A program made the translations under genes and the position numbers. Of a stretch of 64,000 nucleotides of DNA, positions 135 to 61,818 are shown piece after piece. The notes under the pieces are model-generated. The model did not search any database and had not been told where the DNA came from. It was given only the letters and a program-made list of their open reading frames with translations. The DNA lies in assembly GCA_037893225.1 (NCBI GenBank), contig JAZGUH010000950.1:1-64000 (forward strand). Direction: 5' to 3'. This stretch comes from Hippasteria phrygiana. Lineage: Eukaryota; Echinodermata; Asteroidea; Valvatida; Goniasteridae. The stretch's first letter is position 1. Each line of letters opens with the position of its first letter.

Positions 135-1359
135 CTACGCAATACTACAGAGCATGGTAATCATCAGCGAAATGGGGACCACTGTTTTCGAGAATCTGCC
201 GCTAACACCGGACGATCCGCTTGTACCGTTGCCATGTTTCAAAAGTCCGAGATCAAGACGGATGACCCTCCCCTTCCCGAGGCTGGAGCCCATGCTGGTC
301 CCCGAAATGCTGCTCTCGATCTCGCTCTCGCTGGGCTCGGGGTTCAGATGCTCCTCGGAGGAATCTCTACGGACGCGGAGCATCCGGCTCTCGTATTTCT
401 CCTGCAAGTCCTCCCTGAGATGTTTGAGGAAATGGCGGCTACTGCCTATGGCTGTGTTGTCTCGACTGTCTGAGAGCTTCGCATTTTTGAAAGACATGTT
501 GTGGTTTCTTCGTGACTTAAGCTGGGATGCAAGGACATTGCTTGATATGAGACAAGCTGCAGAAATAAAGACAAACAAGTTCGATCAGTTTATTAAGAAA
601 CACAGCTCTAAAAACAGTCAGCCTATAAAACTTGTATGTGTGCTGAGCAAGAGACGCACTAATTCCGAGTACATTTGAGTCTTGGTTGACACCAAAACGG
701 CGAAGTTTACAACTTCAACAGTGGTATTATTCTAGAGCCGAAATAATCCGAAATAGTGCATCTGGCACTGGAACAGTTGGGGGTCAGGGGAAAACTCAAC
801 TTGGTTTCAGTTTCCAATAGCGTAAACTTTTGAAGTTTTTATTAATTTCCCCCTTTAATTTCGGCTGATCTGACAATGATTATCCCGGTGACGGTCAGAG
901 CAGACTCACCGAAACGTGGAGTTAATACCCCATGTTCTGCTCAAAGCCACAATTCTCTTTTTACATTTACTTCACATCTGCAATACTTCTCACAATTGTT
1001 ACAAACACTGGGAAAGGATTCCAGAATAACCTCCAATTTCAGGTGGAAAAAGAAAAAGCAAACATGTGTCAGAAAATAGCCTTTTTGGCGAAATTCTATT
1101 TTCACTAAATTAGAACCAAAAGGCGCCATATCCACATCATTAAAAGGGCGCAATCCTCTCCGAAGGGATGATGCATGGTTTTTAAATCAAACTTTTCTTT
1201 TTCATTTTTTCCCCACTCATCACACTTTGGTTTACAGTTTGATAATGATCACCCTTCCATACACTTGATCTGATGTACTTAAGTCTAAAAAAGAACTAAG
1301 TTTAATATATTTTCGCACTTACCGGAGATGAGAAGAAAGGCCATTTTTGCAAGCTCCAT
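135..1359 (-). CDS. Gene A: secreted or lipid-anchored Ser/Glu-rich protein, two exons
   Basis: Join: exon 1 1359-1323 (37 nt), intron 1322-557 with a GTAAGT donor and a TTTCTGCAG acceptor, exon 2 556-135 (stop TAG). The join is phase 1, stays in frame and gives 152 residues. An in-frame ATG at 1380 would add seven residues; I chose 1359 because it puts the hydrophobic core nearest the N-terminus. The signal peptide is split by the intron, and a likely cleavage follows N-V-L-A at about residue 22. The mature chain has a basic start, sequons N-M-S and N-G-T, a dibasic R-V-R-R followed by an acidic Ser/Glu stretch (S-S-E-E, E-S-E-I-E-S-S; casein-kinase-2-like), a Gly/Ser linker, and a hydrophobic last ~15 residues. 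The small-residue linker plus hydrophobic end resembles a GPI signal but is short, so plain secretion is possible. Family not recognised. It is on the same strand, with the same exon plan, as genes B-F. Confidence 0.72.
1323..1359 (-). CDS. Exon 1 of gene A (signal-peptide exon)
   Basis: Encodes M-E-L-A-K-M-A-F-L-L-I-S plus the first base of the next codon, then GTAAGT. The hydrophobic stretch continues in exon 2. At 37 coding nt it is too short for ordinary ORF detection. Confidence 0.7.
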
Positions 1360-1380
1360 TTTGGCTGTCTTGCTGTTCAT

Positions 1381-6561: not shown

Positions 6562-6670
6562 GGGCAGGGTGGCTCGGTTAGTAGAGCGCCGGTACGGTAA
6601 CCCGGAGGTCGCAGGTTCGAATCCCGCTCCTGCCAGTTTCTTTGTTCACTTTAAACACAGCTTTAAATCA
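6562..6670 (+). mobile_element. tRNA-derived SINE
   Basis: The head resembles a tRNA: a 7-bp acceptor-like stem (GGCAGGG with TCCTGCC), a GCTC/GAGC D-stem and a box B GGTTCGAATCC at about 6613. The anticodon position lacks the usual preceding U and the T-stem has a mismatch, so a functional tRNA is unlikely. The tail TTTCTTTGTTCACTTTAAA is shared with copies at 60538-60640 and 60645-60740, which identifies a dispersed family. Confidence 0.65.
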
Positions 6671-14638: not shown

Positions 14639-17600
14639 TCAGGAGATCCTGACTCTCGTCGCGAAGAAATAAGCCACGCCCCCTACCGCCAGGACCACGA
14701 CCAGCCCCCCGATCACCACCACGGTCAAGAGAGCCCCCAGCGGCACGCCGAGCCGTGATGGGTAGGTAGGCTTCTCGATCTCGCGAGAAATCGCGGCGAT
14801 GTTGTTGTCGATCGTAGGCGGCGTTGGCTGGATCGGTCGGGGCTGGTCCCCGGACCGTTGGGGGTTGAAGGCCCCCACGGGTACGTCGCCCCTCTGCGGG
14901 GTCGTGGGCCTGGGTGATGTCACGGGGGGCTCTGTTACGGGCTGAGGTGGTGCCCCCGTAGGGGCTTGAGTCTCCGGAACACCAGGAATCTCGGGCTCGG
15001 GACCGGGATTTCCCGTATCCGGCCCCCGGCTTGGCTCTACCGGCGGCGGTACCGGGGCATCGGTGCCCGGACCTACATTGGAACTTGATCCCACACTTCC
15101 AAAGCCCTCTTCCTCCGAGCTAGACCCTTCAACTTCTTGTTCCTCTCCCGCCGTCTGGACCCCGATCTCTTCGCTCTCATCCACCGGATTGCGAAATCCA
15201 TTGACGCGGCCCTGGACTGGACGCTCATTCTCCAGACTTAGAGGCAGTGACTCAGTCAGAGGTGTAAGGACGGCGATCACTGCAAAGGGAAATTACAAGA
15301 GGTAAATCTTTTAAATTGCTGCGGAAGTGTTTGGACGAGGACACAATGGCTGGCGGCCGCACAGAATGACTAGTTCACCGCACGAGAATGATGAAACAAT
15401 CCTTGGCCTAATTAGATGAATTTAGTAGGGGAAAAAGCAATAGCACCTTGACGGACATTTCAGACAAGTCTCACAACTACGTGGAAAACACCTCCCAATA
15501 TGTTTTACATTTTACATTTTCTTACTTAAAATGCGATATACTTTCCAGGTATAACTCAAACTGCAGTGTGCAGATTGTATTCTACATAGTGAGCAGTGAT
15601 TGTAGTACAGGAATAAATGAAGTAAACAAGAGAACGTTAAAGTTATAGGCGTCCCCGAAAACGTTGATCTAAATTGACAAATTTTCAAACACACGCTTTT
15701 TTTCCTTTTCATTCACAAGCACCACTTGCCCTCGACTGAGTTCGAGTCTGACTCAAGTATGCCCGTATCAAAGTCCGAGTCCGAGTCCGAAGTCCGAGTG
15801 CTTGGTGTTCGATTCTGCTTCTACCCACTAAAAACGGATTGGTTGAAAACAACTAATATATTGGTAGGATTTGTTGATATGTGTCCAACCAATCCAATTG
15901 GTTGGACACATAATTATCTACCAATATTTGGTTGTTTTAACCAATATATTGGTTATTTAAACCAATCCACTTTTAGAGTGTAGTGCGTCCGAGTCCCAGT
16001 CGATTCTCTATCCTCAACAGTCCAAGTCCTCCACAGTCCAAGTCCTTAACAGTCCGAGTCCTCAATAGTCGAAGTCCTCAAGAGTCCCAGCCTGAGTCCG
16101 AGTCCGTGTACTTGGCATCGGAGTCCGAGTCAAGTCAGAGTCCTCAACAGTCCGAGTCCGAGTGCTTGGTATCTGAGTCCGAGTCTAGTGTGTCCGAGTC
16201 CGAGTCAAGTCAGAGTCCTCAACAGTCTGTGTCTGAGTCAAAGTGCTTAGTGTCCGAGTCCGATCTAGTGTGTCCGAGTCCGAGTGAGAGTCCGAGTCCG
16301 AGTCCAGTCCAAGTCCTCAACAGTCTGTGTCTGAGTCAAAGTGCTTAGTGTCCGAGTCCGATCTAGTGTGTCCGAGTCCGAGTCAATTCCGAGTCCTCAA
16401 CGGTCTGCATCTGAGTCTGAGTCAAAGTGCTTAGTGTCCGAGTACGATCTAGTGTGTTCAAGTCCGAGTCAAGTCCGAGTCAAGTCCGAGTCCTCAATTG
16501 TGCTTTGTGCTTTGTGCCCAATTCCGAGTCCGAGTCCGAGTCCGAGTCCGAGTCCGAGTCCGAGTCCGAGTCCGAGTCCGAGTCCGAGTCCGAGTCCGAG
16601 TCCGAGTCCGAGTCCGAGTCCGAGTCCGAGTCCGAGTCCGAGTCCGAGTCCGAGTCCGAGTCCGAGTCCGAGTCCGAGTCCGAGTCCGAATGTGAATCTC
16701 TAGTACAGAGCTCTCACCGACACCAAGACAGTATACAGTAAAAGTGTACTTTACATGAAGTGATTTTTTTGTGATTTGGGGCACCTAAACATTTGCAATT
16801 TTCTAACCCTTACCCAAGCCTGAAAACCATGAAACATTTTTTTGCAATGTAGCAAGAGAAACGTAGAGGAATCTTGCTATGACACAGTATTGTGTAACCC
16901 TCAGTAATCAGTTGGTAAAATAGCAGTGACAATTTCAAGTCTTAAAATTACCATGGCAATGATACACACATCTAATAGGACGATGTCGCGCTTTATTATT
17001 TTAGTGCCATAGCATTTAAAAGGCTTTTTAACTGATGGTATGAACGCGAATTTCCTCGACGAACAATTCCATCTTCTCATTAAATCCGCTGCTCTTTGGA
17101 TTCGAATAGGCCAGCCAACCCTAGCAAGCTCAGTGGTCCTGTGGTTAAGATATGTACACTAGTAAGCCGGAGGTCGTGGGTTCGATTCCTGCCCGAGTAA
17201 GCCTGTGATGTTTTCCCTGTGAAGTTTGTCCATGCTTAATACACTAAGTCGGGAAAGGCCAAAAATCTCTCCCCTAATTTACATCATCCCACATCCACCT
17301 ATCGGTCGAGTGGTTCAAACATCTGAACTAGTAAGCAATAGGTCGTGAGTTCGATTCCCGCCTGAGTAAACTCGTGGGCACTAAGCATACAGTGCTTAAA
17401 ACCCCGCGCCCAGAAGAGAAATAAATCTCTTTCAATACACCTTATGTGCAGCGAGCATTTTCGAGGCTCATGTATTTGTTACCCTTGGATAGGTCATGGT
17501 ATCGCATTAAAAGTGAGGACTGAAAAGAGGGTATAACAAAGGGAACAAAACTGTCCTCACATTTTATTTCTTTGTTCGGGAAAATGTGAGGACAGGCAAA

Positions 17601-18134
17601 TTAGTGCTTAGTCTATGGGGATGGGTTATATCAAAGGGAAACAAAGGAATGTCCAAAAATACGTGTATGGGTAGATCTTTTGCGCTTACGCTGTTATAAT
17701 CTGAATGACAAAAATATATATACCCAGCACGATACGGGGCAGAGGGGTCCCCCCCCCCCGCTTTGTACCTATACCCTATACACTATCCAGACTATTGTTA
17801 CCTAACACATCCCCTCTAGACATCTGAAAAGAATTCCTGAGATTTCGTGCATCATATGAAAATATACCTTGAAGATATAGCTCAATCCAACAAGATAAAA
17901 ACGAAATGTACAAAGGTTACGCTACAATAAACATTCTTAAATTAGAAGCAATTCGTGAAAGACAAGAGTGATTCAGCGAAGTACAGGTTTCCTGCCAGAC
18001 GTCGAGAATTGAAAGGGCAAAGAGCAAGTCCCTTCCACAAGCCTTCTAAAGCAACTAATTAAAAAAGTACTCCAATGGACATACAAAAGCTTACCTATTA
18101 CAATGAAACAAAGAAGTCTTGCTGGTGTCGCCAT
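14639..18134 (-). CDS. Gene B: acidic/Pro-rich single-pass membrane protein with RGD, two exons
   Basis: Join: exon 1 18134-18095 (40 nt, good ATG context AAGATGG), intron 18094-15280 (GTAAGC donor, TTTGCAG acceptor), exon 2 15279-14639. The join is phase 1 and gives 226 residues. N-terminal signal peptide with core L-L-C-F-I-V-I-V-I-A-V-L. Then an acidic stretch ([13 protein letters not shown]), a long Pro/Thr/Glu stalk, and [10 protein letters not shown] at about residues 139-148. One transmembrane helix lies at about 192-218, followed by a short tail (A-T-R-V-R-I-S). RGD is the classic integrin-recognition triplet; here it would sit on an extended stalk outside the cell. The T-T-P-x-R-G-D-V-P context is shared with gene C. 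No folded domain is visible and the family is not recognised. The cytoplasmic tail is too short for known signalling motifs. Confidence 0.8.
15367..15605. repeat. Dispersed repeat, copy 2 (in gene B intron)
   Basis: Counterpart of 7228-7510 in the same orientation, about 90 bp from the splice acceptor of gene B. Confidence 0.65.
15740..16689. repeat. CCGAGT hexanucleotide array in gene B intron
   Basis: 16524-16689 is an almost pure (CCGAGT)n run of about 28 units. 15740-16500 is a decayed version with higher-order units (for example AGTGCTTAGTGTCCGAGTCC recurring) and a family 2 hairpin MITE inserted at 15826-15981. It reads open in most frames (Ser-Pro, Glu-Ser, Arg-Val, Arg-Thr repeats) only because 6 is a multiple of 3. 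It is intronic. Confidence 0.9.
15826..15981. mobile_element. Hairpin MITE, family 2, shorter copy
   Basis: Starts CACTAAAAACGGATTGGTTG and ends CCAATCCACTTTTAGAGTG, with TTGGT/ACCAA words between, as in the copy at 5464-5721. It interrupts the decayed CCGAGT array. Confidence 0.75.
17110..17445 (+). mobile_element. Two adjacent tRNA-derived SINE modules
   Basis: Box B-like GGGTTCGATTCC (17178) and GAGTTCGATTCCC (17350), each preceded by a box A-like GTGGTTAAGA or GAGTGGTTCAA. The second is followed by GTGGGCACTAAGCATACAG and the AAAACCCCGCGCCC tail. Intronic in gene B. Confidence 0.65.
17490..17640 (+). mobile_element. Palindromic MITE, family 3, copy 2
   Basis: GTGAGGACTGAAAAGAGGGT start and CTGTCCTCACATTTTATTTC middle, with GGGGATGGGTTATAT end. 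Same blocks as 11940-12070. Confidence 0.75.
17721..17850 (+). mobile_element. Palindromic MITE, family 1, truncated copy 3
   Basis: ACCCAGCACGATACGGGGCA start and GAATTCCTGAGATT block; the right end is missing. Confidence 0.7.
18095..18134 (-). CDS. Exon 1 of gene B (signal-peptide exon)
   Basis: Encodes [13 protein letters not shown] plus one base, then GTAAGC. The split codon joins to TG of exon 2 to give Val. Confidence 0.72.
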
Positions 18135-20208: not shown

Positions 20209-21538
20209 TTATGGTACGTCACCGCGCTTGGGCGTAGTTGTTTGGGGCGTGGTAATCCTTGTGGTCACTAGGGGCGTGGTCAACCTTGATGTAAGACGGG
20301 GCGTGGCCATTGTTGTTGTTGTTGTTAGGAGGGGCGTAGTCATCCTCGTTGTGACTTGGGGAGTGGTCGCCTTACTGGTGGTAGGAGCTGGAACAGTTGT
20401 TGGTGTTGGTGGGGACATCGTGGAACATGGCCGACGTACCTCGTCACTGTCGCTGTCATCGCCGCTGTCATCGCCGCTGTCGTTGCAGTCTGTGTCGTCC
20501 TCGTTGGAAGTGTCGTCCAAATAGTTCCAACGGGCGACTCTGTCATGTTGGCTGGGGCTGTGCTCTCTTAGAGGCCGGCAGTCGGATAGGCGTGGCATAA
20601 TCAGAGCTGGTGGGGGAGGAAAGAGAAATTAAGATATTACGATTTGACTGACTGTTGCTGAATAAAACAGAAAAGTTGTTTTTATAGGCCACTGAAAGAT
20701 TCAACAAATTGATATCTTTAAAGTGTTTGGTTTAGGGAGTTTTAGAGAAGTTTTATGTTTAAAGCTGCATTGTGTGAAAGTTTTGTTTTTATAGGATGAG
20801 CAACTAAAATACCCGTAAATGGGCTACTTATATGCGTTAAGCATGCGAACTGGACTGGGGTAGTTTTCTTTCTTTTTTCTGAGACGAATCTGACCTTCTT
20901 TGTTATTGATCTGTACTCAGACACAGGCGGCCATTGCATGGGGCTTTCATGTGTACCTTCATTTTGTGAACCCCAATCAATAATTGTAGTCATATGTACA
21001 ATGCATAGTTATTGTGCAGCTTGGTCGAATTTGTCCACAGAGTGGAGATATTTGTGCAGTACATGTACTTGGAACGACAAAAATATTTTCTTCTGTTAAG
21101 AATACTATACCAACTCGTTTTGATGATCAAGTGGATCAAAAGATCACGTGCTTCATAAGATCATTACCCCTGATCGACGGGCTTATTTACTATGTATCCA
21201 TCTCAACCACTGAGAACATACATCCACGTTTTGCAGTCTGACATGTACTTTTAAGCGCCCGAGCTGCATGAACGGACCATACATACAATATAGGGCATAC
21301 ACATTTCCGTGTAAAATTAAACCGGTAGATGTTACAACCGGGCAACTAACTTTATTGTCAAATCAATAAATAGGAACCCGGATGAAGATGAAGATTTTGT
21401 GAAATATTCCAGTTGATTTACAGAAAAATGACATATATAATATTAAACGTTAATACGGAAAAGGCCGTAACGTCTAATTGTACACTTACCCAACACCGCG
21501 ACAAGCAGAACTGCTGTTGTTGTTTTGTAGGCAGCCAT
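20209..21538 (-). CDS. Gene C: secreted acidic/mucin-like protein ending in RGD, two exons
   Basis: Join: exon 1 21538-21490 (49 nt), intron 21489-20607 (GTAAGT donor, CCACCAG acceptor), exon 2 20606-20209. Phase 1, 148 residues. The signal peptide core A-V-L-L-V-A-V-L-A-L-I runs into M-P-R-L-S-D-C, with cleavage probably just before R-P-L-R. The mature chain has: (1) a polar segment; (2) an acidic run with sequon N-D-S and D-D-S-G-D-D-S-D-S-D-E; (3) a ~70-residue Thr/Pro-rich, mucin-like repeat region (T-T-P-x-x-T-T-x); (4) the C-terminus T-T-P-K-R-G-D-V-P and stop. Three Cys, no transmembrane segment: a secreted, probably O-glycosylated and phosphorylated potential integrin ligand. Paralogue of gene D: M-P-R/K-L-S-D-C/S-R-P-L-R, N-D-S acidic block, Thr repeats, terminal RGD, and identical exon 1 length. 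Family not recognised. Confidence 0.8.
21490..21538 (-). CDS. Exon 1 of gene C (signal-peptide exon)
   Basis: Encodes M-A-A-Y-K-T-T-T-A-V-L-L-V-A-V-L plus one base, then GTAAGT. Start context ATCATGG is favourable. Same length (49 nt) and phase as exon 1 of gene D. Confidence 0.75.
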
Positions 21539-28963: not shown

Positions 28964-29016
<53 letters not shown>

Positions 29017-30744: not shown

Positions 30745-30812
30745 CTATATTGGTAGAGCACTGAAAGCTTTAGACTACAGAGGCCTGAGTTCGAATCCTC
30801 TGCCCGATCTAT
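30742..30812 (+). mobile_element. tRNA-like SINE head
   Basis: TGGCTATATTGGTAGAGCAC (box A-like) followed by GAGTTCGAATCCTC (box B) with roughly tRNA spacing. The stems do not close well, so a pseudo-tRNA or SINE head rather than a working tRNA. Confidence 0.5.
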
Positions 30813-30864
30813 ATTTCAAGGGAAAACACAACGTCTATTTATGACAATTGACCCTAACTTATCT

Positions 30865-33832: not shown

Positions 33833-36240
33833 TCAAATCTGCGGGATATCACCCCGCACACGCGGCCTGGTTGCATGACCCGTCGAAATCATTTCGGGGG
33901 TAATAATCCCTGAAGTGACCCCTGACGTGACCTCTGACGTGACCTCTGCTGTGACCTCTGTTGTGACCTTTGTGGTGACCTGGCCAGTCGCTTGGGGCGT
34001 GGTTTTCGTCGTGGTAGCTTTGGGCGTGGTTACCCTTGCTTGGGGAGGCGCCCTGGTGGTTGTTGTAGTGGGAAGGGAGATTGGCACACCAGGCCACTGT
34101 TGTCTCTCCTCGGAACTGTCGCTGTCATCACTGTCATTGTCGTGTAGGGTTTGTCGATAAACGTAGTACCTTCTGAAGTATCTGGCTGGGATTCTTCCAC
34201 GGCGATACTTTCTGAGTGGCCGAGAGTCCGATAACTTCGGCATCAACAAGGCTGGAAAAGATGAGAGATAAGTATAAGCATAAGTTCTGGTCCAAGTAGA
34301 TAAGGGCCATTTGTCTAACACGGCTTCTGCTGTGGCTTCGACTTATATTTTCCCAGTTCCATTGCCAATTTGAAAGCTTAAATACTACTTTGAACCAAAA
34401 TAAATAAATAAATAAATATTAAAAAAATGCTTTTTCTCTGGGTTCAAATGAAAGACTTTGATGTTTATTTAGAAGAAAAAAGTACTTCCTGTCTAGCCAA
34501 ATCGTAGGACCTAAAATTAGGGGAAGCCGTAGCCACAGGCGAGCCAAGGTTTACGAAATATTCATGGTCTCCTTAATCACAAATAAATGATGGCCGGATT
34601 TGATGTGTAAAGCATGGCTAATCATTCTCTGATAATAAAATGATATAGTGACCTGACCCAACAAAACGGGTGGAAGATAGCAAAAGTCGAAAATTGTATG
34701 AGATTGTGGTATTTCATGAAAGTACAGTTAATCAGTTTCAATTTAATGCATCGTATGTTGCCCTTTCCTAGCCCATGTTATAACTTTTAGAAGTTCTAGC
34801 GTTGTTTGAGAAAAAGTGAAGCCCCAAATCAGTCAATCGCGTCAGTTGGTAAAAACAAATCGCCCCAAAACAATATTTTGAGATTCGGTCAACATTGGGA
34901 TCTCGTTAAAACCCTCAAATCGATACCCAGTTGAAAAAAATAAGATTGTTTCTGCTTGTAACTCTGAAAAGTCATTATGTGATTTCCGCTCATTATGTTG
35001 CGGCAGGTTGTTGGGGGGAGGGCTGTCACTTCCGAGACAAATGTCTTGCAGGAATCAAAGTTTCCTTTAGTTTTCAACCGTGACTTGCCAACTCCATAAG
35101 CCAAACTAATGAGAGATGTATGGCTTGCTGTTCGGTCTTGTGCTCTGTTAAAGCCACATAAGGAAACCACAACAAAAGGAAACCGATGGGGGAGGGGAGG
35201 TGGGGGGGGGGATCACTTTAGGATTTATGGTATTATGATTCATTTCGACAGGAACAACCAATAGACAGGCTATGAGTTCCATCTCCATATTTCCACATTC
35301 GCTGCTAGTTGGTTGGGTGGGGATTCCTTTTTGTCGTTTTGAAGAAAATAAAAATCGAGAAAACAATATTAAAGGTATGATACAGTATTGGCAGAGCAAA
35401 CACGATAGTTACATAGTTCATAAATTGTGGGATTTAACATATACATGCAATTAAGAAACTGTGAAAGTTTGAGCGCAGTCTGTCAATCGAGTTCCTAGAA
35501 AATAGTGAAACTATTTTATTGTTTAATTATTGATTTGGGCACATTTATATGGCTTTAATATGTCGATTGTTAAAATCGGTTTAATAAAGGTCTTCAGATA
35601 AAATGTTCTGGAAGATGACATCATTTCAGACGGAAATATTTCTCCTGAGGATTTGTACTTGTATCACCTTTATAAACAATAAACTATCAGATTGAAAGTA
35701 ATCAGTTTGACCAGTTTGGTTTTTATCATTACCAAGGCCTTAACAATTTAATTACAAACTGTCCCTCTGCGTTCAAATGTCAAATTCTTGTAACTTTGAC
35801 AGTAAACACGTTTATATTTAACTGTCGTTTTTCATAAATACTTTTCTATTGTTAGGTTACTCGTGGTTTTGCATGCATGTCTTATTTGGGGCCAAATTCG
35901 AGGCTACATTGCCTGATATCGATTTTTAGCCAAGATTTTTCATTTTTACGGAAAAGTAGCCACATTTTGATCTTATATCTTTAAAAAGGCAAACATGAAA
36001 ATCAACAGTTAAATATGAACTTGTTAGTACTTTTTTTCTGATGAATTCGACCCGTCTTTCCTCAAGAAAGACAGTAAATACAAGTATTAAAAAATAATGA
36101 AATATGAACATCATATCATAAACGCTTTTCTCTCTATAAATATCCCTAGCTGAGAAGAATATCATGCTTTGTAAATTAGATAAATACTCACTTAACAAAG
36201 CGATGAGAAAAATAACTGTTGTAAGTTTGCAGACGGCCAT
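33833..36240 (-). CDS. Gene D: secreted basic/acidic/mucin-like protein ending in RGD, two exons
   Basis: Join: exon 1 36240-36192 (49 nt), intron 36191-34252 (GTGAGT donor, TTTTCCAG acceptor), exon 2 34251-33833. Phase 1, 155 residues. The signal core V-I-F-L-I-A-L-L-T-L-L is followed by M-P-K-L-S-D-S-R-P-L-R, as in gene C. The mature chain begins strongly basic and aromatic (K-Y-R-R-G-R ... R-Y-F-R-R-Y-Y-V-Y). An acidic block with sequon N-D-S and D-D-S-D-S-S-E-E follows, then a Thr-rich region with short V-T-x-E/G repeats, and the end is R-V-R-G-D-I-P-Q-I. No transmembrane segment. It is predicted to be secreted, O-glycosylated, and a potential integrin ligand. It differs from C mainly by the basic/Tyr N-terminal block, so the pair may have diverged in what that end binds. 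Family not recognised. Confidence 0.8.
34321..34560. repeat. Dispersed repeat with GCTTCGGCT / AGCCGAAGC-type ends (gene D intron)
   Basis: GGCTTCTGCTGTGGCTTCGA at the left and GGGGAAGCCGTAGCCACAGG near the right, with TCCCAGTTCCATTGCCAATT after the left end. Related sequence recurs at 55540-55715 and 55870-56070. Confidence 0.55.
36192..36240 (-). CDS. Exon 1 of gene D (signal-peptide exon)
   Basis: Encodes M-A-V-C-K-L-T-T-V-I-F-L-I-A-L-L plus one base, then GTGAGT. Aligns residue by residue with exon 1 of gene C. Confidence 0.75.
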
Positions 36241-40944: not shown

Positions 40945-43900
40945 TTATCGCCTTGAGACCCTCCTACCGATCAGAAACGCGATCAGCCCCACCAGCACCA
41001 CAGCTCCGACAGCAGACGCCGAGATGACGATCCTGTTCTTGTACGCTGCGCTCAGGCCCTCCTCTTCTTTGGGATTTTCTTCGGCCATTTTAGGAGTAGG
41101 TGAGGTAGGCTTCAGCGTCGTTTCACCCACCTGTTTGGCCTTATCGGCGAGCGCAATGACGGGCAGGATGGGCTTTTTGTCCGTTTTCCCTCCTTCGATG
41201 GCTCCGCCGACGCTGGACGGGATGCCATTCTCCTCATTGTCAGCTCCTTCCGTCTGGGCCCCTCCTGCAGCTTGTCCCTGTCCACCCATAGCAAAGAACG
41301 GGACATTTCCGCTAGGCCTACCTGCTCCTCTCCCACCGACTATCGGCATTCCGCCTGGCCCTGCAATTGTCCCTTCAGTTGTGGCTCCAGTTGTGGCTCC
41401 AGTTGTGGCTCCAGTTGTGGCTCCAGTTGTGGCTCCAGTTGTGGCTCCAGTTGGTGCCATGGTCGTTCCCTCCCCCTCGTTTCCTTCGCCAGCTGCTTCT
41501 GCAGCATCCTCGGCTGCTTCTGCAGCTTCCTCCGCCGCGTCTGCAGCGGCCTCCTGCTCTGCCTCGGTCTGCTCTGCAGCCGCCTCCGCCGCCTCTGCGG
41601 CGGCTTCTTGCTCTGCCTCCCTCTGCTCTGCAGCCGCCTCCGCCGCCTCTGCGGCGGCTTCTTGCTCAGCCTCCCTCTGCTCTGCAGCCGCCTCTGCCGC
41701 CTCTGCGGTGGCTTCTTGCTCTGCCTCCCTCTGCTCTGCAGCCGCTTCTGCCGCCTCCTGCTCTGCTTCAGTCTGCTCTCCGATACCCCCTCCTTCGTTG
41801 CTTTCTACATCGCCTCCTTCAGCCCCTCCACCTACTTGGGCTGCTGCCTGCTGCTCTCCACTCTCATCGTTACCTCCTCCCATCTGTGCACCCATAGCAA
41901 AGAACGGGACATTTCCGCTAGGCCTACCTGCTCCTTTCCCACCGACTATCGGCATTCCGCCTGGCCCTGCAATTGTCCCTTCAGTTGTGGCTCCAGTTGG
42001 TGCCATGGTCGTTCCCGCCCCCTCGTTTCCTTCGCCAGCTGCTTCTGCAGCATCCTCGGCTGCTTCTGCAGCATCCTCGGCTGCTTCTGCAGCTTCCTCC
42101 GCCGCGTCTGCAGCGGCCTCCTGCTCTGCCTCGGTCTGCTCTGCAGCCGCCTCCGCCGCCTCTGCGGCGGCTTCTTGCTCTGCCTCCCTCTGCTCTGCAG
42201 CCGCTTCTGCCGCCTCCTGCTCTGCTTCAGTCTGCTCTCCGATACCCCCTCCTTCGTTGCTTTCTACATCGCCTCCTTCAGCCCCTCCACCTACTTGGGC
42301 TGCTGCCTGCTGCTCTCCACTCTCATCGTTACCTCCTCCCATCTGTGCAGCCGGTTTACTGTGTCGTTTTGGTTTCAGGAGCTGGGCCAGGCCTCGCCCT
42401 GCTTCCCCCGAACTCTCGCCATCTACAAAACCTGACAGACATAAAAGAGGTGCTTGATGTCAGAAAATAAAATTTTCGCCAGGGATGATTTCAAACAAAA
42501 TGCTCGGTGCTTTCCAAGAGCCTGTCGGGAAAACAATCACAGACTAACTTAAGCTAGTATCGAACCCACGACCTCCTACTTCTTACACCGGACATCCCAA
42601 CCATCATCTTAACCGAGCTTGCTTCAGTAGGAAGGGCAACCATTCCGCAAACATCAATTGGAATTCCTTCACAAGTTGCCAAAAAAATGATATAAAAGGC
42701 TTTAATTTCAATTCCTTGGTTATTACATCCACGGCGATTGCGGGAATAATTCCCTCAATCTTAACTTTCACTTTCTTGTACAGTTACAGACCATGCCACA
42801 TTTTGTTCACATCAAGTTACAGTTGAACTTATTACTTCCTAGAAACATGATAAACGTTCCCCCAATTATTCAGTAAGTCCAAAATTTGGAAGTTGGCATT
42901 TTTAGTACATGGCTTTAAACGGAATACATTTGACAGGAGAGGATAAATCGAATTTCAAGAACATCAAAAAAAGTGAATTTCAAATTAGCAGGAAATCGAT
43001 TAGACAGCAATGAAGATCGGAGATAAACCACTTGCACGTCACAATAGATGAAAACCATCTGGACAGTGGTGTATCAAGCGAGGGGGCAGGGAGAATCCCC
43101 CCCCCCCCGCGACATTTTGCCTTTTTCTTATTTAGAGTCCACTTGACGAGTGTCACCACTTCACACACTGTGAATCCCTTGGATGTGATTTCCTATTCAA
43201 AAATGGACATGAGGATTAAGAGGATGTGATTTTAACAATGAGGGTCCAAAATCACATCCTATACTCTATTTAAAATCACATCTGAAGCCTGTGAACTATT
43301 ATCCCACCCTGACAAAGAGTACATACTACATTGTGACTCCTGGGTTTAACAGCTTAAACCGCATTGTGATTCTGGACTCTGGATGTGATTTTGGACCCTC
43401 ATTGTTAAAATCACACTCTCTTAATCCTCCTGTCAATTCTGAATAGGAAATCACATCCAAGGGGTTCATATTGACAATTGGTACATTGAAACCCCGCCCT
43501 TACAAGTTGAAACAAATTGGGGCTACTTTTTTCTCCCCCCAAAAAATCCTATTTTTTTCCCCTTAAAAAAGGGCATGCAATAAAATTCAAACTTTTGATT
43601 GTTTGAGGTCATTCATGAAAACGTAACGTTCATTTACTTCCAGTTCTAAGTTCGAAGGTCAAAGATTGTCAAGGACCAGTGGTTACTGAAGTGGTGCGGA
43701 TTTTTGTCATTACATCATCTGAAAGATAAACCCAAAACTGTCGCAAGATGGCGCTTTCATTGTAATCAAAGAGCAAGTTCGATCAGGGACCAATGGTTAA
43801 CTAGTGGTTGGTTCGTGACGTACGTCGCGCATGAGCACTGAAGTTGAAGTGCGAACGACTCTAGTCGAACTATTGTCATGTCAACGCGACCATGAGAAAA

Positions 43901-45998
43901 TGGCGGTGGCCAGTTCTTTTTACGTTTTTGACGAGTTCATAGATGAAAGCGACACGGACGATATTTGCTCAGTATATCAACAATGCCACAAGTGGTAACG
44001 TGTGCATTATTTTAACATGTTAAAAGAAAGACAAAGTAACAAAAAACGATCGTTTACTGCAGCTGAATATTTACGTTTTTTCGCCATTTTTCTGATAACT
44101 GGTCATCTCTACACTGTGCTATTAAAACGGCTATTGGTAACCAGTGATGCGACCAACCTCGGTAGGCTGGTCGCGAATCGTTGACTAGACTAGTCCAACC
44201 ATCGTCGACTAGCGTGCGTTCGATCAGGGTTAGTCGAACTATGGTTAACTATAGTCCTTGATCGAACTTGCTCATGCTTGAAGCAAGGCGGCCATGTTTA
44301 GTCAAAAATGCCGCCTACGAAGTAGTTGTATGATGTCAACGTGCGCTTTTCTATACGCGCATTCGGGCATAGGACGCCATGTTTGGCTCCGACTTTTAGG
44401 ACCGTCGTGTTGTAACTTTCTATCAAGCGTACATCACCATCAATGCCAAAAGGTTCATGCCAAGACAAGAAAGGAGAGAGCGGTCTTACGATATCAATAT
44501 TTGAAAGTAAAGATTGATCTTTAAAAACAAAAGTGGCTTACTACACAAACAAACGAACCATCGGGACAGTGACAAGTCCTTGATTTACACATAGATGTCT
44601 CGTAGGGTGGGGCACTTAATGTTGTGGTTTTTAGTTTATCTCCCCTTCTTAAACCATTCTACTACTTCGAGTTAAATAGTACCATGGCTAACGTAAACCC
44701 CATTAAGGCCGGTTCATACTTCACGCGAATGCGAAAGCGAAGCGAATTTTGTGACGTCAACAATAGTTATTTCATTGTATTAACGTATACACCGTTACCC
44801 AGACGAATTCGCTTCGCCCTCAAATTCGCTTGAAGTATGAACCGGCTTTTTTTTCATCATGCAAAGTGTCCCCTTAGATTGGTTTTCAACCATGATGCAA
44901 AGTCTCAAATAATATTCAACTTTTTGAGTAGTTTGCTGTATGCATTCAGGGGCGAATCCAGGATTGTTTGCAGGGGGGTTCTGAAATTTGTTCCGTACAT
45001 TTACCCCAAAAGTTGACTCCCAAAATGTTTCGCCACCTGCGAACACAATTTTAAAAGCGAGGGGGAGGGGGAGGAGGAGGGGGAGGGGGAGGGGGAGGGG
45101 GAGGGGGAGGGGGAGGGGGAGGGGGAGGGGGAGGGGGAGGGGGAGGGGGAGGGGGAGGGGGAGGGGGAGGGGAGGGGGCACACTTTCGCAACGTTGGTGG
45201 CACAATTTAACCTCTTTGTTTTGTTCTTACCCTTATACGCAAAATAAGACCTTTACAGGGTTTGCAACAAACAAACAAACAAACAAACAAACAAACAAAC
45301 ACCCCAACACCCCAACAAACAAACAATTGGCAACTAGCGGGGGTTGGGGGGGGGGGCGAATTCTACCCCAAAGATTGTTTAGTATAGGTTAATCTGCGAA
45401 GGGACACGACCCAACCTTGAGGTTTAGGGTCATTTTTTGACTCGTTAGCTTTCTACTTGCATTGGATAGAGCATACTCGGCTCTTCATTCTGGTATATCA
45501 CTCAGTTTGACATCCTGATGAATATGGCCATTATGTGGGTGCAAACCTTGACAGTTCCTATCGATTTCCACAGTATAAATCATGTTTAAGTGCCTGTAAC
45601 TCAGAAGTAACTCTGGTAACTTGTGACTTATTTTGTTGGGTTGGGTTATATAAGCAAGTCACAGTTGCCCTATACAGAAAGAAACAAAACTATTAAGCAA
45701 AGAATTCAATGTGTCTGTATATTCAGGCTTAAGAAAAGAATCATGTCAAACAGATTGTGTATTCAAAAAATGCTACCTCGAATGAAGAATTTTTTAAGAA
45801 AGTGTACTTAAGATTGTGTTAGGATGATTCAGCATCAGCACTTTCGCTGCGTGAAATCAAACTTGTATCACAGAACACTTAGATTCAACACTAGAAGAAG
45901 AGTGAAGGGTTTTTGTGAAATGAAAACAGAATGACTGCCTTACCTCCTAGAAGAATTACAGCAAGGACGAGTAGTGTTATCTGATATACGGACGCCAT
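40945..45998 (-). CDS. Gene E: Ala/Glu/Gln-repeat single-pass membrane protein, two exons
   Basis: Join: exon 1 45998-45944 (55 nt), intron 45943-42432 (GTAAGG donor, CTGTCAG acceptor), exon 2 42431-40945. Phase 1, 513 residues. Signal peptide [15 protein letters not shown], probably cut before E-S-S-G-E. Two tandem modules of about 202 residues follow. Each has a Gly/acidic head ([12 protein letters not shown]), a helical Ala/Glu/Gln block (A-E-Q-x-E-A-E-Q-E-A-A repeats, then A-A-E-D-A-A-E), a Thr/Gly stretch (G-A-T-T) and [11 protein letters not shown]. The Ala/Glu block should form a long charged helix or coiled coil. Near the C-terminus one transmembrane helix (about 486-506) is followed by G-R-R-V-S-R-R. 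No RGD. The intron holds several MITEs. Family not recognised; recombination between repeats should make it length-polymorphic. Confidence 0.8.
41284..42495 (-). repeat. 606-bp tandem duplication and 12-bp minisatellite in gene E exon 2
   Basis: ACCCATAGCAAAGAACGGGA occurs at 41284 and again at 41890, exactly 606 bp (202 codons) apart, and similarity continues through the module. One module also has six copies of TTGTGGCTCCAG (41385-41450; G-A-T-T in protein) where the other has one, and a different number of 60-bp-class Ala/Glu units. Confidence 0.85.
42535..42630 (-). mobile_element. tRNA-derived SINE fragment (gene E intron)
   Basis: On the minus strand GCTCGGTTAAGATGATGG (box A-like) and GTGGGTTCGATACTAG (box B). 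Related in layout to the modules at 17110-17445. Confidence 0.55.
43171..43469. mobile_element. Palindromic MITE, family 4 (TCCCTTGGATGTGATTTCC ends), copy 1
   Basis: Left TGAATCCCTTGGATGTGATT and right AATCACATCCAAGGGGTTCA are inverted, and inner inverted blocks GATGTGATTTTAACAATGAG / GGGTCCAAAATCACATCC nest inside. Degraded copies are at 52262-52490 and 58036-58300. Confidence 0.75.
43768..44275 (+). mobile_element. DNA transposon remnant, copy 2, with short ORF
   Basis: Ends AGAGCAAGTTCGATCAGGGA and ACTATAGTCCTTGATCGAAC then TTGCTC are inverted. Inside, ATG at 43901 begins [21 protein letters not shown], which stops after 32 codons. This resembles the start of a transposase-type ORF rather than a full gene, and later frames are broken. 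The 24375 copy lacks this part. Confidence 0.65.
44704..44850. mobile_element. MITE with GCCGGTTCATACTTCA ends
   Basis: AAGGCCGGTTCATACTTCAC at the left and TTGAAGTATGAACCGGC at the right, with inner GCGAAGCGAATT / GAATTCGCTTCGC palindromes. Half of the same element is at about 2790-2825. Confidence 0.75.
44946..45370. mobile_element. Repeat with GGGGCGAATCCAGG end, containing (GGGGGA)n and (AAAC)n
   Basis: CAGGGGCGAATCCAGGATTG, then CAAAATGTTTCGCC, a (GGGGGA)n array of about 20 units (45058-45178), GCACAATTTAACCTCTTTG, then (AAAC)n (45268-45302) and a G run. The same block order is in 50775-51095, where the first array is a pure G run. Confidence 0.7.
45944..45998 (-). CDS. Exon 1 of gene E (signal-peptide exon)
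   Basis: Encodes [18 protein letters not shown] plus one base, then GTAAGG. Confidence 0.75.
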
Positions 45999-50310: not shown

Positions 50311-50329
50311 CTACTAACTAGTCCACTGC

Positions 50330-55012: not shown

Positions 55013-55013
55013 G

Positions 55014-56655: not shown

Positions 56656-56659
56656 GCAG

Positions 56660-57147: not shown

Positions 57148-60100
57148 TCACGGGTCGGGGTTCTTGCGAAAGATTCTCCTGCCAACCTTGGTCAGGGTCA
57201 ACAGCATGAAGCTGAGCAGGGCTCCTACGCCGATTGCCCCTACAAACATCAGCACCGCCATGATGCCACTCCCCGGAACTCCGCTCAGCCCCTCCCCCGG
57301 TTTCTCCTCCTTTTCTCGCGCCTCTTTTCCAATCTCGTCCACGTGACCTTTGTGACCACCGACCTCGTTGTCGTGCTTCGTGGAGACGATGTTCAAATCT
57401 TTGCTCGTGTCCGGCGGGCTGTGGCGCACGCTGTTGGGGATATTGTTGCTCGGCCCGCCCTCCTCGTGGTGGTCGGCGAGGGTTGTGGAGTCCGCCTCTG
57501 TGGGCGTGACCTTAGCGACCTCATTGCCGGCTAACTCCCCGCCCTCCCCCTCCGACTCCGACCCCGCTTCCCCTGCCTCGCCGAGCTGATTCTCCTTCCG
57601 GTCCAGATCGTAGATGTCGCTCTCTGCCATGGTCGGGTCCTCTGGAATCAATTCCGCGGTGTCGGAATCGGAGTCGAACACGATATCGGAATCACCAGTA
57701 TCGATACCGCCTATTCCGTTTCCATTGTAGATGGAGCTGCTCAGTGCTTCCACCACTGAGGGTTCCATGCTACTCATCTGTACGTAGATGGGCACCTTTC
57801 CCGAACTGGAGGAAAACTCAGATGCCTCTGAGATGCCACTCCCTTCCTGGTCGGCGAGATATGCCAGTGTTTGGCTTGTAATAGTTCCCATCTCTCCCTT
57901 CAGAGAGGCAAAGGCCCCAGATCCTTCTGTCAAGGGAACAGCTTCGCATCCCTGCATCCAAACTGAAACACAAAAGACAGATACCGGTAAAAGGCCCAGA
58001 TAAATAAGATAAACAAAAATAAGTGTGGAAGTTTATCTGATGTGATTCTAACATCCTGAGCGCAGAATCACAATGTGGTCTACACTAAGCCTCTTCTGTC
58101 CGGCTGTTATTAATGGGGTGCTGGATTGAACTGGATTGAGTACGCGCAGTAATGCGCGTTTAGACGACAACCGGCCACTTGGTCTTTTTTTTTTCAAACC
58201 GCGGATATGGCCGTCGTCCGTATTATTAAACCCATAAGTCACAATGCACTCTTTGTCAAGGTGGGACAATAGTTATCAGGCTTCAGATGTGGTTTTTGAA
58301 TAGGGCAAACAAAAATTGTTGTGTTGCCCTCGGACAAGTAAAATTGGAAAAGAGGGGCGGTAGGTCTTAATTTTTATTTTTTGCTAATGTAATACTATTG
58401 GAAACGATTTTGAAAGCCCCGTGGAAGAGGTTGAGCCATGCCGTCATGTGACCGATTCGAAGAAGAAGCAATTAAGCTGGTTGTTTTTCAATCTCGGTTG
58501 TTGTAAACATCGAGAGATACGATAAGTTTTTGCCAATTCGATTTTACTCTTCCGCTACAATATATTTATGCATGTCTAAAAGACATGGAATTGGTTATAA
58601 TAATAGAATTTTTACATGCACTGTCCTTGTTTTTTTTCTTTTCTTGCTAGACCTCTCCAGACCGAAAGTTTAGGGTTTTTAGCTATATAGGCTACTCTTC
58701 AGCCCGAATGGAGCTTTGACGAGCGCGACGGATCGAAGTCATCTTCACGCTCACCCGGGCGTGTTTAGGCCTAAACGCTGGACGAAACCCCTGGTTTCAT
58801 GTTTTACATTAAAATACGCATAAAGTAAAGGTACATCAACTACAAACACTTTTTGAGACAGAGAGGCCGAGTTATGTTTTTATTGATTTTAAACAAACAA
58901 AAACCAACAACAACACGCCAACCCTGATTCTGTTGATTTTTACGGTCGGTAGGTCTGAGGCAACACGACATTTTTTTTGGCCTATTAGGGTTTGAATTTT
59001 AGTATGATGTGATTTCGGACACCAATTGTCGAAATCATATCGTCCGGGTCCAGGTGGGGGGGGGGGGGGGGGGTGTCGGTTGTTCAAATTTTCTTGGCCA
59101 AGCTCTAAAATGTGCGTACAAATCTGGCTCCGATTTTTTCTTTTTGCCAGCAAAATATTTTGAAAACCGGGTGTAGGTGAGAGGGAGTACAGATACTGTT
59201 TTGGGATGGCCCTTGCAAAAGCTTTTAAACATTCGGCCCCAGAAAACAAAATACATGCATGTAAACACACGACAATAGATGAAAGAAAAATTATACGTTT
59301 CTGAAGATATTGGAAAACAAGATCTCTAATTATTATTACTATAGGTTTTCCCGGCCAATTTAAACAAAAATTCATTCAATTTAATACCTGGCTCATTCAA
59401 TTTAGTTTGAAAATGAATGTTCCGTTGCATCAGCATTCAACAGTCAAAAGGAGTAATTCCATTTCAGCAGTTTAGCATTCACTGGCCAAATGAGATCATT
59501 CAAATTCATGAGGTCGCAAAGATCATTCAATTTCGTAAAAGCCAGCAGCAAGAGGCTGCTCAACCATTCAATTTCATCAATTGGCAAACATTTTTCAAAT
59601 GTTTACATTCAAATTCGTTTCTATGGTATGTGCTTTCTGATTCGTATTTTAATTTGACGTGGTCCGATTATTAGCAGAAATAAAGAAGAAAACATAAAGA
59701 CCAGTGCAAACTATCACAAGGCTATTGCGAAAGACTTTGTTTTCATTTCAAACTTATCACCATAACTTTTCAAACTTTACTTAACAGTCTTCTAGATACA
59801 GGGCAAAAGGAACAATTATTGCAATTAAGACAAAACACATGACGTAAATGAAATGCAAACAACACAGAAACGCATCTAACAAAGAAAAACTCAAGTGCCA
59901 GTAAAAGAGCTATTGCCAGCTTCCTCGAATAAACAAGCCATAACTCATGTTCAATTTGAACGCACAGAATTTGAAATTCATTGCCCATAAACGAAAAAGA
60001 AAACAAAAACTAGCAACAAATTCATGTGCGCTTCGATGAGTCTTAATTTGATTTCATCAATTGTAGATAGGTAGTAGAAATTCAACTGAAGATTGGTGAA

Positions 60101-61818
60101 AATGTAGTCTTGAATGCCTATAAATGAAATAGAATGACTAAAACGAACCTGAATGAAAAGAACGAAATCATGTGTGCACAGACACGAAATTGAATGCAAT
60201 AGTAGCTAAAAAGAAACCCTAGTTTGATTGAATTAGGGGAAAATGCGTGAATTTGAATGCGTGTTAATGAAGTTGAATTAATTTGTGATAAAATTGGCCG
60301 GGAAAACCTATACTATTTATTAATATTAGTATTATTATTATTTTCTGGAGTGGGTGTGTCCGGGACTGTGCGTTTTATTTTTAGGCAAGTTTTCTCAGTA
60401 CACTTTAGGCCTAACGGCATACAAGTGCCCAATCTCAAATCTCAAAAATATATTAGCCTCTCTCTATTTGTGGAAATAATTACAGTTCCTGCCGTAAATC
60501 CATCACTTGAATTGTTGTAACAAAAATTTGACATTTTCAAAGTGAACAAAGAAAACTGGCAATAGCGGGATTCGAACCTGCGACATCCGGAACACCGCAC
60601 TGGCGGTTAACCAACTGAGCTACTGGAAGACCGCCAAGATAGGGCAATATATATTGGTAGAGCGCCGGTACGGTGTTCTGGATGTCGCAGGTTCGAAGCC
60701 CGCTCCTGCCAGTTTTGTTTGTTCACATTGAAAAATAAATTCTGACTGTGCGAAGTCACCGATTGTCATTTTGTGCCTGTTACATCTCTGATTCTCGAGT
60801 ATGTGTGTGTTTTTTGTGCATTCGTCAGTTTCATGATTATGGACAAACGTTTCGACGCTGAAGTACCAGGCGGGAAACCCATAATTCTTTAATTGGTACA
60901 AAGGAAAGATTCATTAGATATCGCTTCGGTCACATTTTCTGGCACTTTTAAGGTGCAACTTCATTTTAGAATTTTCAGTTTTTAAGAGTTGTTCTTTTTC
61001 AACTTTTTCGTATTTGATTCTGTTGTTTACGAGAAGGGAGAATTTTGTTAAATTGTAACATAATCCGTGGTGTTCAAATAACAGTAACAAAAAACACGTT
61101 CACGTCGTCCTAACGATGGTAACGTCGACGCATTTCTTATCACAAGGACACACAGACTTAACATTTCCGTTAAAGTAGAGGGCCCAAAATGGCGGCTGCC
61201 TGTTTGAATTTAGCAGTCAGCACGCAGTTTACTCTCGTTCAACATGACAGTTTTAGTCACCATGAGATTTGCATTTATATCCGAATGTACAAAACCGACA
61301 GTATAATTATACTGTATTTGCGGTCAGTGCGAAATTATCTGCGACAGACATATGAAAACGACTGAATGCCTATTTCTTGTACTTTTCATTAATGTCTTTT
61401 AGGCGATCAAGGCTGAGAACTAATCACAGATTACCTGTGACTCAGCAGAGCTTTCAATCCTTCGTGCAACATTTTCGAATCAGTTGACAGATTTATTTTT
61501 CGTTGTTTTCTATGCACATTACCTTCTGGGAACTTCAAGATTATCCCTTTTTGGCCCCACCCTTCCTGTCCCGTCACCGACTCCCGCCAATATGATTCAT
61601 TCTCACGTGTCACTTTATCATATTCCACCCCCGCGCCATTAGAAATCAAAATCCCATGTCTTCCATCAATGTCGCACAAATAAGGCACCGATCATAACAC
61701 AAAATGACACCTTAGTAAAACTTCACACACTATACTTCGAGAATAAAAAGTGCATGTAAACGGCCATAAACTTACCCATCCACACGCTCAGAAAGACGAC
61801 TCGCCTGCTTCTCGACAT
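57148..61818 (-). CDS. Gene F: acidic single-pass membrane protein with Ser-Gly sites, two exons
   Basis: Join: exon 1 61818-61776 (43 nt), intron 61775-57963 (GTAAGT donor, TGTTTCAG acceptor), exon 2 57962-57148 (stop TGA). Phase 1, 285 residues. Signal peptide R-R-V-V-F-L-S-V-W-M-V-W-M-Q-G-C-E-A, cut before V-P-L-T. The ectodomain has T-E-G-S-G (about 26-30), Q-E-G-S-G (about 53-57) and S-S-S-S-G, i.e. Ser-Gly next to Glu, the known context for xylose/glycosaminoglycan attachment. It continues with D-S-D-I-V-F-D-S-D-S-D-T-A-E, an acidic Glu/Gly/Ser stretch, a His-bearing segment, and a basic/acidic stem. One transmembrane helix (about 247-271) precedes the basic tail T-K-V-G-R-R-I-F-R-K-N-P-D-P. 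It could be a small part-time proteoglycan; it lacks the conserved cytoplasmic E-F-Y-A of syndecans. No RGD. The intron contains a TA-flanked transposon and SINEs. Family not recognised. Confidence 0.8.
58036..58300. mobile_element. Palindromic MITE, family 4, copy 3 (gene F intron)
   Basis: GATGTGATTCTAACATCCTG, CAGAATCACAATG, ATAAGTCACAATGCAC and GTGGGACAATAGTTATCAGG in family order, interrupted by unrelated bases. Confidence 0.6.
59052..59074. repeat. Poly(G) tract in gene F intron
   Basis: GTCCAGGTGGGGG... run of about 18 or more G. Preceded by GATTTCGGACACCAATTGTC-type sequence; no element ends recognised. Confidence 0.8.
59342..60310 (-). mobile_element. TA-flanked non-autonomous transposon, copy 2 (inverted)
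   Basis: TA-flanked ends TAGGTTTTCCCGGCC and GGCCGGGAAAACCTA. The interior is the reverse complement of 53357-54360 (for example GCGTGAATTTGAATGCGTGT near the right end). 969 bp, slightly shorter than copy 1. Confidence 0.8.
60538..60640 (-). mobile_element. tRNA-derived SINE (minus strand)
   Basis: Minus strand: GGCGGTCTTCCAGTAGCTCA, GTTGGTTAACCGCC, box B GCAGGTTCGAATCCC, tail TTTTCTTTGTTCACTTTG. Closest to a real tRNA fold of all the copies, but joined to the same SINE tail as 6562-6670. Confidence 0.65.
60645..60740 (+). mobile_element. tRNA-derived SINE (plus strand), 5' truncated
   Basis: TTGGTAGAGCGCCGGTACGG, box B GCAGGTTCGAAGCCC, tail TTTGTTTGTTCACATTG; lies back to back with the minus-strand copy. 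Confidence 0.6.
61776..61818 (-). CDS. Exon 1 of gene F (signal-peptide exon)
   Basis: Encodes M-S-R-S-R-R-V-V-F-L-S-V-W-M plus one base, then GTAAGT; the basic n-region is followed by the hydrophobic core. Confidence 0.75.

Follow-up and report, generated by a model that had tools for sequence, protein, structure and literature searches.

The six genes of the cluster

The window, a stretch of 64,000 nt of Hippasteria phrygiana DNA (contig JAZGUH010000950.1), contains exactly six genes composed of a leader exon and a terminal exon, named A to F and all located on the minus strand (Table 1). They were recovered by a scan of both strands in all phases without prior choice of open reading frames, the thresholds of which were fixed only once the six genes were already known. 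The recovered sizes agree with the first-pass annotation, which had described six minus-strand genes with a short exon 1, a phase-1 intron and a terminal exon. On the plus strand the same scan yielded two weak joins, one of them antisense to E. From A to F, the introns measure 766, 2815, 883, 1940, 3512 and 3813 nt, and all six are in phase 1.

Table 1 Exons and protein features of genes A to F (positions in the window)
Feature	Position	Strand	Basis or remark
A exon 1, 37 nt coding, signal-peptide start	1323..1359	-	both-strand scan
A exon 2	135..556	-	mature chain basic, pI about 10.4
A C-terminal hydrophobic stretch, nothing beyond	138..194	-	putative GPI-anchor-type signal
B exon 1, 40 nt	18095..18134	-	scan; leader matched by orthologs P0006 and P0007
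B exon 2: acidic Pro-rich ectodomain, RGD, transmembrane helix, short tail	14639..15279	-	
B RGD	14885..14893	-	present in 2/2 orthologs found
B transmembrane stretch	14672..14740	-	
C exon 1, 49 nt	21490..21538	-	scan and homology to D
C exon 2: acidic, then Thr/Pro-rich stretch, C-terminal RGDVP, without membrane anchor	20209..20606	-	
C RGD, C-terminus two residues beyond	20218..20226	-	
D exon 1, 49 nt	36192..36240	-	scan and homology to C
D exon 2: paralog of C, without membrane anchor, C-terminal RGDIPQI	33833..34251	-	
D RGD	33848..33856	-	
E exon 1, 55 nt	45944..45998	-	scan; leader matched by Acanthaster P0008
E exon 2: Ala/Glu/Gly-rich repeats, transmembrane stretch, basic tail	40945..42431	-	pI about 3.7
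E internal duplication, blocks aa 47-199 and 200-401	41284..42348	-	
E transmembrane stretch	40975..41031	-	
F exon 1, 43 nt	61776..61818	-	scan; spliced leader matches Patiria and Acanthaster orthologs
F exon 2: acidic Ser/Gly/Glu-rich ectodomain, transmembrane stretch, basic tail with NPDP end	57148..57962	-	
F EGSG motif	57916..57927	-	invariant, 6/6 aligned sequences (including two close Asterias relatives)
F DQEGSG motif	57835..57852	-	invariant, 6/6 aligned sequences (same alignment)
F transmembrane stretch	57196..57264	-	

A targeted listing of splice junctions gave a single candidate each for B, D, E and F, three for A (two with one donor) and three for C (of which two share a donor at a distance of 5442 nt). 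Within control stretches taken from the window, the score of the real exon 1 was reached in 1/180 cases for A, 4/168 for B, 3/178 for C, 17/172 for D, 0/164 for E and 22/163 for F; for D and F the scan by itself is therefore not decisive. The predicted junctions of B, E and F are supported by proteins of other starfish, and those of C and D support each other, the leader model of D showing homology to C from residue 1. The sole basis of the gene A model is the scan, and an alternative in-frame ATG upstream at 1380 gives an exon 1 of 58 nt.

None of the six proteins matched a Pfam family at the cut-off; sub-threshold matches for A, D and E (E-values 0.041-0.72) were set aside as weak. All six ectodomains fall in the disordered range of the charge-hydropathy plot, and AlphaFold2 predicted no ectodomain structure for B and F, with one C-terminal helix in each. 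The proteins B, E and F are acidic and carry a single membrane stretch near the end, followed by a short tail. Protein E comprises 513 aa, and the DNA of its duplicated blocks is 96% identical across 153 aligned codons. Like that of A, the mature chain of D is basic. The two invariant motifs of F are what we take to be candidate glycosaminoglycan attachment sites.

Relationships among the genes

Proteins C and D are similar with z values of 11-13 against segment-preserving shuffles. With dN 0.42, dS 1.41 and dN/dS about 0.3 they are, on the evidence of their sequences, old paralogs from a local duplication under purifying selection. Their exon-1 DNA matches marginally (65.6% across the first 93 nt, E about 0.07). 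In the same shuffle comparison, B reached z 2.5-4.1 against C and 1.7-1.8 against D. A further comparison of the B orthologs with C and D around the cleavage site gave z 2.0 and 4.0; B is probably a membrane-bound relative of both. A hidden transmembrane exon 3' of C or D was considered and rejected, the minus-strand DNA downstream of both genes showing no match to the C-terminus of B.

No significant homology was detected for A, E and F, either with each other or with the B/C/D group, and a profile comparison of B, E and F was likewise not significant. As first proposed, the mature chains mostly give no significant alignment, C/D being the exception and, weakly, B. The suggestion of a locally duplicated family holds for C and D and probably extends to B, but not to A, E and F, which show no significant relation.

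To look for a common leader or promoter, each exon 1 was compared together with 300 nt of its intron and 1.2 kb of 5' flank at a threshold of E 0.1. A single match between genes resulted, 15 bases long and shared by A and C at places that do not correspond, and the candidate was rejected for want of a corresponding DNA match. At the same threshold, the regions 3' of the stop codons gave matches of 19 bases (A/C) and 23 bases (A/F), and the introns gave matches between B/E, D/F and E/F, five of six in opposite orientation, which are taken to be interspersed repeats.

Conservation in other starfish

Orthologs of F were found in Patiria, Acanthaster and two Asterias, along with one ENA fragment. 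Those of B were found in Patiria and Acanthaster, with no Asterias protein among its two matches, and that of E in Acanthaster alone, Patiria being absent among the matches to E. The searches with F, B and E (5, 2 and 1 matches) returned no echinoid sequence, and a mixed profile search gave no C/D ortholog among the 8000 candidates scored. Several orthologs bear automatic names that are misleading (proline-rich receptor-like kinase PERK9, WAS/WASL-interacting protein, ribosome-binding protein 1-like, Syndecan).

Exon-1 residues of F were matched at 10/14 and 8/14 positions in Patiria and Acanthaster (57-71% versus 64-66% in the remainder) and at 4/14 in Asterias (29% versus 43%). For B the values were 6/13 and 8/13 in its two orthologs (46-62% versus 60-63%), and residues 190-220 of B, in the region of its transmembrane stretch, showed 28/31 matches in each. 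For E, 12/18 exon-1 residues were matched in its one ortholog (67%) versus 177/381 in the remainder (47%). The orthologs of B and F in Patiria are listed on sequences of equal size (41,642,996), as are those of B, E and F in Acanthaster (1,131,760); given these equal sizes, the genes probably lie together in both species. The presence of B, E and F orthologs in Acanthaster indicates that these chains were already distinct before the families split.

These results bear on the model of the first-pass annotation, in which copies of a single leader exon spread along the locus and were retained, the terminal exons either diverging very rapidly or being captured from other sources. Strand, intron phase and layout are indeed alike in all six genes, C and D are clear duplicates, and in E the exon-1 residues are the better conserved part. 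However, no corresponding leader or promoter DNA was found at E up to 0.1, the leaders of B and F are not clearly more conserved than the mature chains, C/D are under purifying selection, and B, E and F were already distinct before the Acanthaster lineage diverged. Moreover, phase-1 introns at signal peptides are described as common in animals (PMC1626468); the shared layout is mostly the default of animal secreted proteins. We consider this model improbable.

The generic layout, and the lack of significant homology linking A, E and F to each other or to the B/C/D group, would suit chance neighbours, i.e. at least four unrelated genes for secreted proteins plus one duplication (C/D or B/C/D) with no common function. 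This reading is possible, if doubtful. Against it, predicted disorder and surface targeting are common to all six, the scan found no further two-exon leader gene on the minus strand, the ten of the 81 other listed open reading frames that were compared with Pfam gave no match at the cut-off, and B, E and F are seemingly still together in Acanthaster.

A putative matrix-type cluster and known systems

Since at least three genes are old and conserved, the locus appears as a standing cluster of surface proteins, not a burst of fast-changing copies. We favour, with a probability of roughly 0.6, an old tandem starfish cluster of extended, mostly unfolded cell-surface or secreted proteins of matrix type. 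B, E and F would be held in the membrane, C and D would be released with their terminal RGD, and A may carry a GPI-type signal. The chains may be decorated, with phosphorylation of Ser/Asp/Glu stretches, O-glycosylation of Thr/Pro stretches and, in F, glycosaminoglycans on the two invariant Glu-Gly-Ser-Gly sites, and could then form a charged, calcium-binding coat on cells, the RGD-bearing members connecting cells to the matrix via integrins. As the likeliest setting we propose a connective tissue, either the matrix of the calcitic skeleton or some other; a role in the skeleton is plausible, though unproven.

S-x-E/D sites exceeded shuffles in B (6 versus 1.8, p 0.004), C (4 versus 1.5, p 0.046) and D (3 versus 0.9, p 0.045; all p values uncorrected), were not enriched in A and E and were rarer than in shuffles in F (2 versus 5.4). 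Alx1-type palindromes, a skeletogenic signature, were not enriched (3 found, 2.82 expected). The excess in B, C and D speaks for a matrix reading, as do the orthologs of B, E and F and their probable linkage, the RGD retained in B orthologs, the invariant motifs of F, the predicted disorder, the selection on C/D and the sea urchin precedent of P16 described below. The basic chains of A and D, the lack of S-x-E/D enrichment in A and E, the low count in F, the Alx1 result and the absence of Patiria among the E matches and of Asterias among the B matches count against it. So do, for the skeletal matrix, the available parts of two studies: the Patiria skeletal proteome, which there reports no acidic repetitive proteins resembling spicule matrix and whose main text lacks the terms P16, RGD and transmembrane (PMC5460417), and a four-species comparison including Acanthaster, which there does not name P16 among shared biomineralization genes (PMC5638244). 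Among the papers listed by our literature searches, none deals with this starfish cluster. Should the proteins belong to the matrix of skeleton or connective tissue, they would represent a candidate class not found in the starfish skeletal proteome (PMC5460417) and another clustered toolkit of RGD-bearing or acidic disordered matrix proteins beside the vertebrate SIBLINGs; if not, six usable gene models are still gained.

Among known systems, the sea urchin Transformer (Sp185/333) genes are described as clustered, with a leader in exon 1, the mature chain in exon 2 and RGD in most members (PMC5491942). The starfish genes share the two-exon layout and the clustering, which together with disorder, RGD in three members and the internal repeats of E could suggest a fast-evolving immune effector cluster working in the Transformer manner. 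In contrast to Transformer genes, they lack Gly-rich and His-rich regions (5, 0, 2, 2, 1 and 6 His per mature chain from A to F, Gly 2-16%) and a common leader, similarity from residue 1 occurring in C/D only. On composition they fall outside the Sp185/333 family, as had been anticipated. Transformer members are mosaics of elements, whereas the starfish members are mostly unlike each other and have orthologs across starfish families; Transformer genes are, moreover, described as restricted to euechinoids (PMC11810900). An immune role of this kind is very improbable.

The UniRef label of the Patiria F ortholog is 'Syndecan'. Like syndecans and other small transmembrane proteoglycans, F is a predicted type I single-pass protein with acidic Ser-Gly motifs. 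Its tail, however, ends in NPDP and lacks the conserved syndecan cytoplasmic domain, the ending of syndecans being EFYA, and F gave no Pfam match of any family at E up to 1.

P16 is a small acidic protein with a signal peptide and a transmembrane stretch, a build that B and F share and that E shares except for size. In sea urchins it is described as essential for skeletogenesis and as adjoining one or more genes for an abundant skeletal protein that is Gly/Pro-rich, predicted to be disordered and provided with a C-terminal transmembrane stretch (PMC2909932, PMC2527298, PMC2614417), and it is listed among transmembrane biomineralization proteins (PMC13200730). B, E and F fit the general description of this neighbourhood of adjacent genes (P16, Sp-Hypp_2998/2999, Glean3:18406/18407), a likeness in kind; secreted members with RGD, such as C and D, do not figure in the available accounts.

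The vertebrate SIBLING genes (acidic SCPP) are described as tandem and diverged, with several acidic products and RGD as defining motif (PMC2803795). The starfish cluster is likewise tandem and diverged with several acidic products; RGD occurs in only three of its six genes (B, C and D) and is retained in both B orthologs found. Differences are the basic chains of A and D, the membrane anchors of B, E and F and the two-exon genes with phase-1 introns; a single-sequence scan of the six proteins gave no match to SIBLING/SCPP families in Pfam at E up to 1. The likeness is at most convergence. Within the matrix-type reading, we regard as tentative and rather unlikely the more specific proposal that the cluster is a convergent echinoderm counterpart of the SIBLING genes and corresponds in starfish to the P16 neighbourhood, tethering skeleton-forming cells to the mineral matrix. 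The tether would then consist of charged polymers bearing RGD and glycosaminoglycans, with a single RGD protein occurring both in the membrane (B) and as a secreted form (C, D).

Gene models and neighbouring features

The cluster of six genes (A–F) is real. The first-pass annotation of six minus-strand genes, each made of a short coding exon 1 and one terminal exon separated by a phase-1 intron, was borne out by a scan of both strands in all phases with no ORF preselected. The minus strand returned A–F and nothing else and the plus strand two weak joins, at thresholds chosen after an exon-1 search had already given A–F. That search, which required an open leader with its ATG, a consensus-quality donor and a hydrophobic stretch upstream of each terminal ORF, recovered the annotated exon 1 of all six genes, with introns of 766–3813 nt. 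The top-ranked phase-1 acceptor of each terminal ORF is listed in the table; in B and F it ties with a second acceptor. The real exon-1 score was reached in control stretches of the window in 1/180 cases for A, 4/168 for B, 3/178 for C, 17/172 for D, 0/164 for E and 22/163 for F, and hence D and F need outside support. The spliced leader of F is matched in its Patiria and Acanthaster orthologs and is weakly similar in Asterias (4/14 exon-1 residues), while D aligns with C from residue 1. Orthologs of B and E also carry matching spliced leaders. The five models B–F, with outside or paralog support, are right; that of A, which the scan by itself supports, is likely right.

Gene models and other features of the window, with coordinates
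Feature	Position	Strand	Location	Description
Gene A	1323..1359 / 135..556	(-)		acceptor 556
Gene B	18095..18134 / 14639..15279	(-)		acceptor 15279
Gene C	21490..21538 / 20209..20606	(-)		acceptor 20606
Gene D	36192..36240 / 33833..34251	(-)		acceptor 34251
Gene E	45944..45998 / 40945..42431	(-)		acceptor 42431
Gene F	61776..61818 / 57148..57962	(-)		acceptor 57962
ORF fragment	4234-4509	(-)		contains PPRSPDLTPCDLFLW stretch
tRNA-Thr (GGT)	6563-6635	(+)		Rfam and ARAGORN agree
(TCCGAG)n array	16523-16689		gene B intron	perfect, 27.8 copies
Satellite-like tandem arrays, several	24963-31815		between C and D	units about 141-390 bp
(GAGGGG)n array	45059-45178		gene E intron	
Large imperfect inverted repeat	47146-50315		between E and F	five block pairs, 95-99% complementary

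The innermost arms of the inverted repeat lie 787 nt apart, and TGACGTCA is present in several consensus units of the satellite-like arrays. The ORF fragment, which we take from its stretch to resemble the end of a mariner-type transposase, matched no Pfam family at E up to 0.1.

Orthologs, kinship and age of the cluster

Gene F is matched in Patiria miniata (64%), Acanthaster planci (61%) and two Asterias species (35%), as well as by an ENA fragment without leader (64%). These matches mark the window as asteroid DNA, and in this one gene Hippasteria is nearer to Valvatida, represented by Patiria and Acanthaster, than to Forcipulatida, represented by Asterias. Matches to B were found in Patiria (54%) and Acanthaster (50%), and to E in Acanthaster only (430 aa, 52% over 74% of the searched region). 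The automatic names of these orthologs, namely Syndecan for Patiria F (P0001), PERK9 kinase and WAS/WASL-interacting protein for the two B orthologs (P0006 and P0007) and ribosome-binding protein 1-like for Acanthaster E (P0008), are probably misleading and have the appearance of low-complexity matches.

Pairwise z scores were obtained with 300 shuffles per pair, preserving local composition, at two segment sizes. The proposed locally duplicated family holds for C and D (z 11–13), probably extends to B (B–C z 2.5–4.1; B–D z 1.7–1.8) and finds no significant support for A, E and F (C–E z 1.0–1.8; all remaining pairs z ≤1.3). Around the signal cleavage site, B orthologs gave z 2.0 and 4.0 against C and D, respectively, a weak likeness to F (z 2.1) and none to A or E; when B, E and F were compared profile to profile, no significant match emerged. 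With dN 0.42 and dS 1.41 over 135 codons, C and D are duplicates of long standing, on average held by purifying selection rather than caught in runaway divergence. A published survey reports that, in the animal groups studied, phase-1 introns are over-represented close to the cleavage site in genes whose products have signal peptides (PMC1626468). Unrelated secreted proteins would often show the layout of A–F, which is mostly ordinary and, taken alone, weak proof of kinship.

The idea of a leader kept while mature chains diverge or are captured is not clearly supported by the ortholog pairs, in which the exon-1-encoded residues of B and F are about as variable as the remaining residues. The exception is E, with 12/18 exon-1 residues identical versus 177/381 elsewhere and expanded ectodomain repeats; the 96% DNA identity of two internal blocks over 153 codons suggests a recent duplication.

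The listed source sequences are of equal size for Patiria B and F (41,642,996) and for Acanthaster B, E and F (1,131,760). These sizes, which carry no order or distance, suggest one contig in each species. If so, B, E and F would have been associated, with chains already distinct, before the lineages of Hippasteria and Acanthaster parted.

Properties and possible setting of the products

Charge-hydropathy places the ectodomains of all six products in the disordered range. B, E and F have a single strongly hydrophobic stretch near the C-terminus followed by a short tail, a feature that hydropathy analysis did not find in C and D; in A a hydrophobic stretch lies at the very end. AlphaFold2 modelled B (mean pLDDT 54, three sequences) and F (mean pLDDT 47, six sequences) with an ectodomain without structure and a C-terminal helix, F having two further short helices at the N-terminus, within the leader portion of the modelled ORF; on such shallow alignments low confidence speaks only weakly for disorder. 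With hand-assigned signal lengths, the mature chains have pI values of about 10.4 (A), 4.1 (B), 4.8 (C), 10.6 (D), 3.7 (E) and 4.1 (F). Three of the proteins, B, C and D, contain RGD (shuffle expectation 0.03–0.04 per protein), which is retained in both B orthologs. EGSG and DQEGSG are kept in all six F sequences; acidic Ser-Gly motifs of this kind take glycosaminoglycans, and the two in F are candidate attachment sites. S-x-E/D sites outnumber those of shuffled chains in B, C and D (p 0.004–0.046, uncorrected), show no excess in A and E, and fall below shuffles in F.

Judged by their secretion signals and membrane anchors, by RGD and the invariant acidic Ser-Gly motifs, and by their conservation, the products may form a charged, extended cell coat and a secreted matrix, partly integrin-linked. 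The interest of the cluster lies in its content, a set of surface proteins, in part conserved and disordered, that carry RGD and motifs of proteoglycan type. Its setting is a guess: the matrix of the skeleton, another connective tissue or immune cells. Several observations count against the skeleton: Alx1 sites are not enriched in the window, the main text of a Patiria skeletal proteome is without the terms P16, RGD or transmembrane (PMC5460417), and passages on biomineralization genes common to urchin, sea cucumber, Acanthaster and acorn worm leave P16 unnamed (PMC5638244). A skeletal setting is favoured by the precedent of the sea urchin, where P16, essential for skeletogenesis, adjoins the gene or genes of a skeletal matrix protein; this abundant protein is rich in Gly and Pro, predicted to be disordered and equipped with a C-terminal transmembrane stretch (PMC2909932, PMC2527298, PMC2614417). 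Also on the side of the skeleton, one paper assigns P16 to a group of genes that four echinoderm classes conserve well (PMC5831733).
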